The position numbers and the translations under genes are program-made. A DNA stretch of 64,000 nt, taken from NCBI GenBank assembly GCA_945869195.1, contig CAMBNV010000001.1, positions 186,001 through 250,000 of the forward strand. Reading direction: 5' to 3'. Below are positions 10,034 to 12,824 of the stretch, piece by piece. Each line of letters opens with the position of its first letter. Position 1 is the stretch's first letter. Origin of the DNA: Gemmatimonas phototrophica (lineage in GTDB: Bacteria > Gemmatimonadota > Gemmatimonadetes > Gemmatimonadales > Gemmatimonadaceae). The notes under the pieces are model-generated. The model searched no databases. It saw only the letters and a program-made list of their open reading frames with translations, and was not told the origin of the DNA.

Positions 10034-10912
10034 ATGAGCGTCCGGGTCCTCTACAACCCAGCCTCCGGTCGCGGCCGAGGTGCGCGGGCGATCGTCGGCA
10101 TTCGTGCCGCGTTCGCCCGTTGTGGTTTCACCGACGTGCGCGGGACGAAGCACGCGGGCGATGAAGACCGGCTCCTGCGCGAAGCGATCGAGGACGGGAT
10201 CGAGACGATCGTCGTCTCAGGGGGCGACGGCACGTGGAGCAGGTGCGCCGTGCCCCTCGCGCGGGCGGGCTCGCCAGCACGCATGGCCTTTCTCGCGGCG
10301 GGCACGGGCAACGATTTCGCGAAGAATCTCAGAATCGATGCGCGCGATCCCCGCGCACTCGCCGAGGGCCTGGCCGACGGAGGGTTGCGCGAACGTCGGG
10401 TCGACCTGGGCCGCGTGGACGACTGCTGGTTCCTTAACGTCGCCGGCTTCGGGTTCGACGTCGCCGTGTTACGTGCCAGCTTGCGGCAGCAGCGGTTGCG
10501 AGGCGCCGCCGTCTACGTGGTGAGTGCGCTACAAGAGCTCTTCCGCTTCCCGGGGCTCCCGATCGCCGTCGACGGTGCGCCGCCGCGGACGCACCTGCTC
10601 GCGGTCTTCTCCAACGGAACGCATTTCGGCGGCACTTTTCATATTGCACCCGGGGCGCGGATCGACGATGGGATGATCGACACCGTCCTGGTCCGCGACC
10701 TGCCGCGCCTCGCGCGGCTACCGCTGTTGGCGCGCGCGATCCGCGGTACCCATCTCCGCGGCCCGCACGCCACGCAGCAGCGCACGGCGCAAGTCAGCTT
10801 GCAGTTCGCGGACGCGCCCTGGTTCCAGGCCGATGGCGAACTCTGCCGCGCTGCGGGCGCGTCGGTTCAGGTCGCGAGCGTGCCTGGCGCACTCCGCGTC
10901 ATCGACGCGTAG
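10034..10912 (+). CDS. Diacylglycerol kinase family lipid kinase
   Basis: 292-residue protein of the DAGK catalytic / YegS-BmrU family. It has the N-terminal YNPASGRG motif, the nucleotide-binding SGGDGTW loop, AAGTGNDFAKN, and the downstream F-x-N-G-x-x-F-G-G segment (FSNGTHFGGTFHIAP). Such enzymes phosphorylate diacylglycerol or related lipids using ATP. The substrate cannot be fixed from sequence. ATG start, 16 nt after acnA. Cytoplasmic or peripheral membrane. Confidence 0.9.
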   Translation: MSVRVLYNPASGRGRGARAIVGIRAAFARCGFTDVRGTKHAGDEDRLLREAIEDGIETIVVSGGDGTWSRCAVPLARAGSPARMAFLAAGTGNDFAKNLRIDARDPRALAEGLADGGLRERRVDLGRVDDCWFLNVAGFGFDVAVLRASLRQQRLRGAAVYVVSALQELFRFPGLPIAVDGAPPRTHLLAVFSNGTHFGGTFHIAPGARIDDGMIDTVLVRDLPRLARLPLLARAIRGTHLRGPHATQQRTAQVSLQFADAPWFQADGELCRAAGASVQVASVPGALRVIDA

Positions 10913-10953
10913 CGCGATTGCGCCGGGCACGCCGGCACTCCAGACTTCTTTCA

Positions 10954-11517
10954 ATGCGAACCTCACTCGGAAGTTTGGCGGGCCTCGTCTTCATTGCGCT
11001 GGCATCGCCCGCACTTGCTCAGGCCCCAACTGGCGAACTGAAGGTCGGCGATCTAGCCCCCGACTTCACCCTGCCGGCGTCTACGAAAGCGGGCGTCAAC
11101 CCTACGCCGATCACCCTGAGCGGCCTGCGGGGGCAGACCGTTGTCCTTGCCTACTTTCCCAAGGCGCGGACCGCTGGCTGAACGGCTCAAATGGAGGCGT
11201 ACCGTGATCAGTACGCCACGATTTTCAATAACGGCAATGGTGTCACAGTGCTGGCAATCAGCACCGATGCCGTGGCGGTGCAGCAGAGCTGGGCGGCGGA
11301 GAAGAACTTCTCCGTGACGTTTGTCAGTGACGCCAATGGCGTGACTGGCGAGCTCTACGCCGTAAAGTTTCCCGTCGGCAACTTTCTCCGGCGGGTTGTT
11401 TTCGTGATCGGACCGGATGGCCGGATCGCGCACATCATGCGGCCGTTCCGCGAACTCTCGGCGGAGGCCTACATCGAGCTGGGAGCTGCTGTGAAAAAGG
11501 CGCGCGGCGGAGACTGA
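10954..11517 (+). CDS. Exported peroxiredoxin with in-frame UGA at the peroxidatic Cys (candidate selenoprotein)
   Basis: Read through the TGA at 11179-11181, this is a 187-residue AhpC/TSA-type (BCP-like) peroxiredoxin. Residues 1-22 form a signal peptide ending ALA, so the protein is probably periplasmic. The fold motif GDLAPDFTLP is followed by PKARTAG-UGA-TAQMEAY. In the family, the position occupied by UGA (residue 76) is the peroxidatic cysteine of the TxxC motif, and T73 is conserved. The 111 codons after UGA are open, use normal codons and contain the expected FVIGPDGRI strand. No resolving Cys is present, so it would act as a 1-Cys type. The stop overlaps the glycerate kinase start by one base. 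Alternatives are a recent Cys-TGC to TGA nonsense mutation or a sequencing error. A SECIS-like hairpin follows the UGA. No sel genes are in this window. Confidence 0.75.
11196..11217 (+). promoter_or_regulatory. Candidate bacterial SECIS hairpin
   Basis: Perfect inverted repeat GGCGTAC / GTACGCC (11196-11202 and 11211-11217) enclosing the 8-nt loop CGTGATCA. The loop begins 21 nt after the in-frame UGA, within the 16-37 nt window used for bacterial SECIS models, and it has G as its second base as those models require. The hairpin is inside the coding sequence, as bacterial SECIS elements are. Recognition by SelB is an inference. Confidence 0.6.
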
Positions 11518-12824
11518 TGGACAGCCGTGACGTCGCGGCAACGCTCCGACAGTGCTACGACGCGGCGATCGCGGCCGCCGACCCCGCCCGGGTCGTCCGT
11601 GACGGGCTGCGCGCGCATGAGGTGACGCTGGAGGTTGGGCGCGATCGTCCCCACTGGATCATCGCACTGGGCAAGGCCGCCCCCGCCATGGCGCATGCGG
11701 CCGTCATGCACTGTGACGCGGCCGGACTCGAGATCGCCGGCGGGCTCGTCGTCGGCGTGGCGTCGAGTGAGGCGCCAGACCGGCGTCTTGAATCGATCGT
11801 CGGCGATCATCCGGTGCCGGGCGCACGGTCGGCCCGCGCGAGCGAGCGCCTGAGCTCCCTCACGGACCGTATCGGACGGAACGATGTGGTGCTCGTACTC
11901 ATCTCCGGCGGCACGTCGAGTCTCGTGGGCGCGCCGATCGATGGCGTGCGCGCCGCCGACCTCGCCGCCCTCGGCGCGCTACTCCTTGGCACCGGCGTCC
12001 CAATCGCGCGCATCAATGCCGTGAGGAAACGGTTCTCCCGTTGGGGCGCCGGCCGGCTTGCCGAGGCATTACACGGCGCGCGGGTGGTCCCAATCCTGCT
12101 CGCGGATGTGCCAAACGAAGACCCGGCGATGATCGGCTCCGGCCCGGTCACGCCCGACCCGCTGGAGGCGCGACATGTCGAGCGCATCCTGAGAGAGGCG
12201 GGATTGGCGGTGCGAATCCCTCTTTCCGTGGCCTCGACCCTCGGTGCCATGCGCGCCGGTCTCATACCCGAGACGCCGAAGCGGGACCATGCCGCGTTCG
12301 CGAGGGTCTCCGACCCATTCGTAGTCGGAAACTCGGTGGCACTCGACGCGGTGGCGGCGACCGCGACCGCGGCGGGGTTTGCGCCGGTGCTGCTCTCGCG
12401 GACGCCACTTCAGGGCGACGCGACCGGCGCTGGTCGCGTGATCGCGCATGCGCTGGCGCGTGCGCCGCGCGGGGCCTGCCTCGCCTGGGGCGGCGAGACG
12501 ACGGTCAGACTTCCCGAACATCCTGGACTCGGGGGCCGGTGTCAGCAGCTGGCCCTCGCGGCGGCGGAGGTGCTCAGCGATCTCGCCGCGGAAGGCACCT
12601 GGATCCTTGCTGCGGGAACCGATGGTCGCGACGGACCCGCACAGGCTTCTGGCGCGCTCGTCTCGTGGACAAGCTGGCACGCCAGCGAGGAGGCGGAGGG
12701 TCGCCCGGCCCAGTCGCTTCGCCGGTGCGACGCCCACGCCGCGCTTGCGGTGGCGGGCGCGATACTCCCGCCGATCGCGACCGGGACCAACGTCATGGAT
12801 ATCGTGGTGGCGTTGCGGGTGTGA
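11517..12824 (+). CDS. Glycerate 2-kinase (MOFRL family)
   Basis: 435-residue glycerate kinase of the DUF4147-MOFRL type, which phosphorylates D-glycerate (normally at O2) with ATP. Visible blocks are ALGKAAPAMAHAA near the N terminus, SGGTSSLV, INAVRKRFSRWGAGRLAEA, the long LLADVPNEDPAMIGSGP segment, and the MOFRL-type C terminus GGETTVRLP...GGRCQQLALAAA...AAGTDGRDGP. The ATG overlaps the stop of the peroxiredoxin gene (TGATG), so translation is probably coupled to ribosomes that have passed the upstream UGA codon. Cytoplasmic. Confidence 0.92.
   Translation: MDSRDVAATLRQCYDAAIAAADPARVVRDGLRAHEVTLEVGRDRPHWIIALGKAAPAMAHAAVMHCDAAGLEIAGGLVVGVASSEAPDRRLESIVGDHPVPGARSARASERLSSLTDRIGRNDVVLVLISGGTSSLVGAPIDGVRAADLAALGALLLGTGVPIARINAVRKRFSRWGAGRLAEALHGARVVPILLADVPNEDPAMIGSGPVTPDPLEARHVERILREAGLAVRIPLSVASTLGAMRAGLIPETPKRDHAAFARVSDPFVVGNSVALDAVAATATAAGFAPVLLSRTPLQGDATGAGRVIAHALARAPRGACLAWGGETTVRLPEHPGLGGRCQQLALAAAEVLSDLAAEGTWILAAGTDGRDGPAQASGALVSWTSWHASEEAEGRPAQSLRRCDAHAALAVAGAILPPIATGTNVMDIVVALRV

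Follow-up and report, generated by a model that had tools for sequence, protein, structure and literature searches.

A probably exported peroxiredoxin of Gemmatimonadota whose in-frame UGA is almost certainly a selenocysteine codon

Does the UGA that interrupts a peroxiredoxin gene of Gemmatimonas phototrophica encode selenocysteine (Sec), or does it mark the end of a broken or divided gene? In the window (the whole 64,000-nucleotide stretch of DNA that was analysed), the gene runs on the forward strand from a putative start ATG at 10954 (alternative start TTG 10918) through an in-frame TGA at 11179-11181 to a second TGA, the stop, at 11515-11517; the read-through product has 187 amino acids, and the UGA is residue 76 in the active-site stretch FPKARTAG-U-TAQMEAYRDQY. 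An earlier note on this DNA had proposed a candidate selenoprotein, a '1-Sec' peroxiredoxin with UGA at the catalytic cysteine, had named a TGC-to-TGA nonsense mutation as the alternative, and had asked, among other checks, for a look at sel genes and a tRNA-Sec (UCA) in the same genome, the corresponding column in related genomes, and a bacterial SECIS after the UGA. We regard the UGA as almost certainly a Sec codon because the machinery is present in the genome, a conserved hairpin lies downstream and the UGA is kept across the class. The features concerned are collected in Table 1.

Table 1. Coordinates of the predicted Sec-peroxiredoxin gene, its elements and its flanking genes, as positions in the window
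Feature	Position	Strand	Evidence
Predicted Sec-peroxiredoxin gene	10954..11517	+	Read-through frame, Pfam AhpC-TSA, UGA in 86/107 homologues, AlphaFold model
Putative signal peptide, residues 1-22, MRTSLGSLAGLVFIALASPALA/QA	10954..11019	+	Basic start, hydrophobic core, AxA motif
Active-site Pro69 codon of P-x3-T-x2-U	11158..11160	+	P in 21/21 Cys forms, 16/86 Sec forms
Active-site Thr73 codon	11170..11172	+	T/S in all but 1/107 homologues
UGA, peroxidatic position, residue 76	11179..11181	+	UGA or Cys in all homologues read; tRNA-Sec co-occurrence
Predicted SECIS stem-loop, 7-bp stem 11196-11202/11211-11217, loop CGUGAUCA 11203-11210	11196..11217	+	Pairing, compensatory changes, frozen wobble codons
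Arg147 codon, candidate active-site Arg of the peroxiredoxin tetrad	11392..11394	+	Invariant in 11- and 32-sequence alignments
Downstream gene, DUF4147/MOFRL, glycerate 2-kinase type	11517..12824	+	ORF and Pfam match; follows the peroxiredoxin directly in close relatives as well
Upstream gene, diacylglycerol kinase/YegS family	10034..10912	+	Pfam DAGK_cat, YegS_C

The read-through protein matched the AhpC-TSA family of Pfam (PF00578) over residues 31-160 (E 1.2e-24; 87 bits against a cut-off of 26), and its AlphaFold model (mean pLDDT 90, pTM 0.82) showed a thioredoxin-like fold and had peroxiredoxins as top PDB matches, while sequence comparison with the PDB gave BCP- and AhpE-type peroxiredoxins as the best matches. 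The P-x3-T/S-x2-C/U motif with its Arg is complete (P69, T73, U76 and the invariant R147). The proposal that UGA occupies the catalytic Cys position of a peroxiredoxin was thus borne out by the Pfam match, by the stretch PKARTAG-U-TAQMEAY and by a column that holds UGA or Cys in the homologues; the '1-Sec' class also fits, since the read-through protein has no cysteine anywhere. Its N-terminus, judged by eye and from hydropathy, combines a basic start, a hydrophobic core (mean hydropathy up to 2.9) and an ALA/QA cleavage motif, and similar N-termini occur in its relatives. The protein is therefore probably exported, with a periplasmic location suggested by this signal-peptide-like N-terminus.

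The neighbouring genes (aconitase, diacylglycerol-kinase-like, glycerate-kinase-type and nitrilase-like) form a housekeeping synteny common to near relatives, and the ATG of the DUF4147/MOFRL gene overlaps the peroxiredoxin stop (TGATG). Among the neighbours examined at the window locus and at the loci of relatives, no redox partner gene was found beside the peroxiredoxin.

When 107 homologues were read base by base, the catalytic codon was TGA in 86 and Cys (TGC/TGT) in 21, with nothing else in any of them, so that every homologue read had one or the other in this column, a regularity far beyond chance. The nearest relative, from another metagenome-assembled genome (MAG; L143, 86% identical), has the same UGA, and a single TGA interrupts most of the best matches listed for 198 genomes of this class. 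When named genomes were scanned, 80 loci with 89 copies (74 TGA, 15 Cys) came up; all are Gemmatimonadota or near-identical in kind, and MAGs of lake, soil and groundwater origin make up the majority. The genomes used in the comparisons seem to be mostly MAGs as well. In a tree of 171 copies, which does not polarise the changes, the Sec/Cys label switches at least 11 times, 7 of these forced by starred branches. Tandem arrangements were also seen: a Cys copy just upstream of a Sec copy (L153, L154, L155, L156, L157, L158 and L160), two Sec copies (L161, at 5464 and 6001), and Sec followed by Cys (L178).

The assembly that holds the window (2.33 Mb, 98% complete, 15 contigs) encodes selA (532 bits), selB (310 bits) and selD (387 bits), all above the NCBI curated cut-offs, together with a tRNA-Sec of anticodon UCA that adjoins selD; all four components that the earlier note had named are present. 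The selD gene itself (L017, G000:C2:139627-140550) has an in-frame UGA (GAG-U-ASK), and together with the peroxiredoxin this makes at least two selenoprotein genes in the genome. Across the class, tRNA-Sec scored above threshold in 114 of 120 genomes with a UGA copy; it was not found in the other 6, all of which have selA. It was present in 4 of 19 genomes with Cys only among the close homologues listed (Fisher p 4e-12, with genomes counted as independent despite kinship). The same split runs through the window's own genus, where G000, G008 and G066 have UGA and tRNA-Sec, while in G138 and G154, both with Cys, the search for tRNA-Sec found none. Some class genomes have tRNA-Sec and no UGA copy among the matches listed, either with no peroxiredoxin match (G061, G073 and G098) or with Cys only (G148, G150, G033 and G002), and Sec is therefore probably used for other proteins there. 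A TAG flagged within the G148 match (L061, G148:C3:469500-471100) was considered as a Sec codon and rejected: it simply terminates a Cys gene, since the catalytic codon is TGC and the tRNA-Sec of that genome is UCA.

A hairpin with a 7-bp stem (GGCGUAC/GUACGCC) and the loop CGUGAUCA begins 14 nt after the UGA. The bSECIS model allows a loop of 3-9 nt, a stem of 4-16 bp, a spacing from UGA to loop of 16-37 nt and a minimum free energy (MFE) of at most -7.5, with a G among the first two loop bases and G or U after it (PMC13188914). The window hairpin agrees with all of these constraints (loop 8 nt, stem 7 bp, UGA-to-loop 21 nt; MFE -13.8 for the 54 nt from the UGA), having G at loop position 2 and then U, which is G in 6 of 86 relatives. 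Pairing was found in all 54 distinct relatives (378/378 cells), doubly changed cells numbered 20 against 4.5 in shuffles of these sequences, and sliding the partner strand by 1 to 3 columns destroyed the pairing. The basal pair occurs as G-C, C-G, U-A and A-U and the second variable pair as G-C, A-U and G-U, both of these wobble pairs joining third codon positions; in about one third of the wider set (n=86) the two bases of the basal pair do not match, mostly being A-A, which leaves the six upper pairs there. One locus (L192:6157-6201) carries a double compensatory change in the stem (GGCATAC..GTATGCC) at two synonymous sites.

Codon use in the hairpin is frozen in comparison with the rest of the same genes: CGT stands in 80/86 sequences against 10% of Arg codons elsewhere, GAT in 85/86 against 28%, and GCG in 85/85 against 44%. 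The 6 exceptions to CGT are CGG, by which the G[G/U] loop rule is still kept. At E <= 1e-5, a covariance model of the hairpin had matches in 204 of the 298 phylum genomes, and among the weakest of these are a few Cys genes with hairpin-like coding sequence (e.g. G116, G084). These two Cys copies (L045 in G116, E 6.5e-9; L040 in G084, E 3.5e-9) come from genomes where tRNA-Sec was not detected and keep a partial palindrome, perhaps a fossil SECIS left after a Sec-to-Cys change, or perhaps only coding similarity. Within the window's genome the model found no second hairpin of this type (the other match had only E 0.7), and no SECIS family of Rfam matched the hairpin region. A bacterial SECIS with compensatory changes is thus found where one had been sought, and together with the sel genes and the UGA/Cys column it supports the candidate selenoprotein of the earlier note.

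Other readings of the UGA must be set against these observations. That a reassigned or suppressor tRNA decodes the UGA as a different residue, such as Cys or Trp, has in its favour that Cys is the alternative residue in homologues; it is nevertheless very improbable, as TGA is also the predicted stop of the same gene, the UGA tracks tRNA-Sec and is accompanied by a SECIS, and the full palindrome is gone from most relatives with Cys. Equally little credit can be given to a split gene or pseudogene halves, in which the UGA would end translation and an internal ATG at 11191 would start another short protein. Open reading frames at 10918-11181 and 11191-11517 do exist mechanically and would probably be called by automatic annotation. 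However, the Met at 11191 varies (His in 4/86 and Val in 1/86), a single domain would be cut at its catalytic residue, Cys codons alone replace the UGA and never another stop or residue, and the conserved loop and stem of the hairpin would be left unexplained.

An ordinary Cys peroxiredoxin with a TGC-to-TGA nonsense mutation or a sequencing error would need only one base change, Cys homologues exist, and the assembly behind the gene is in 15 contigs. Against the seven nearest relatives, however, dN was 0.07-0.29 and dS 0.5-1.4, and the dN/dS ratio of about 0.1-0.25 was similar before and after the UGA; the part beyond the UGA therefore behaves as translated protein in the same frame, with purifying selection equal to that upstream. 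The same UGA also recurs throughout the class in many independently assembled genomes (86/107 homologues, 74/89 named copies), the hairpin is structurally constrained and the Sec machinery is present. These results contradict the alternative offered in the earlier note, and mutation or error is excluded for practical purposes.

We are accordingly left with very high confidence, drawn from sequence comparison, in a genuine selenoprotein gene, whose product would be a probably exported 1-Sec peroxiredoxin of the BCP/PrxQ-like kind with Sec76 inserted through SelB. SelB and Sec-tRNA(UCA) would bind the hairpin and selenocysteine would be placed at residue 76, as the machinery and the hairpin sequence suggest, and the product would probably leave the cytoplasm by the Sec pathway. 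By analogy with the family, the selenolate would attack H2O2 or an organic hydroperoxide positioned by Thr73, Arg147 and Pro69; because the protein lacks a resolving Cys, an external thiol would then reduce the resulting selenenic acid.

Sec-peroxiredoxins with TxxU are an established bacterial family (PF00578, COG1225/BCP-type; PMC13188914, PMC1088965, PMC1794560), with which the window protein shares the fold, the Pfam family, Sec at the peroxidatic position of P-x3-T-x2-U, a bacterial SECIS directly downstream and the existence of Cys homologues elsewhere. The window branch differs in its putative export signal and its class-wide distribution, and most relatives, though not the window protein, replace the motif Pro, which is described as conserved in the family (PMC13188914). 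As such proteins are already known, the window gene represents a new class-wide, probably exported branch and no new kind. In the open-access papers searched, no mention of the family in Gemmatimonadota was found. The best sequence and fold matches were Cys peroxiredoxins of the BCP/PrxQ and AhpE types (NF006960; PDB 2ywn, 2cx3, 5epf, Rv2238c AhpE), with similar GCT-x-Q/E active-site surroundings; these use Cys, and the window protein scored 66 bits against a cut-off of 140 for NF006960. It is also homologous to the thioredoxin-dependent PrxU of the Eubacterium acidaminophilum type (NF040737), a protein with Sec at the same place, over residues 28-159; unlike PrxU, it lacks cysteine, and its 54.3 bits against a curated cut-off of 270 place it outside that equivalog.

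The motif Pro, which the window protein keeps, is replaced in Sec forms only (homologue loci L022-L051, L061-L140 and L143-L222). Among the 107 homologues it was retained in 21/21 Cys copies against 16/86 Sec copies, the remaining Sec copies having mainly Phe (43) or Tyr (23) and also Val, Ile or Ser in its place, and in the 171-row set it was missing from 0/31 Cys and 94/140 Sec copies. Pro is present, too, in every Cys copy that is nested within non-Pro Sec relatives (L033/L166/L173, L040, L072 and L073). Independent pairs on supported branches numbered five, with a mean of 3.6 in the expected direction and none against, and the association is suggestive only, because five such pairs give p 0.125 at best. 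It is conceivable, though we hold this tentatively, that a Sec nucleophile makes the motif Pro dispensable and has given rise to an (F/Y)-x3-T-x2-U subfamily, possibly with altered access of substrate or water; if confirmed, the Sec-only replacement would tell what selenium buys chemically.

Standard annotation would probably cut the window gene in two at the UGA, and routine annotation would likewise truncate genes throughout the Sec-peroxiredoxin branch. With this finding a whole bacterial class, widely sampled in soil, lakes and groundwater, joins the organisms known to use selenium against peroxides. The sharp switching between Sec and Cys, which tracks tRNA-Sec even within one genus, and the tandem copies make the group well suited to studying what keeps selenium in use.
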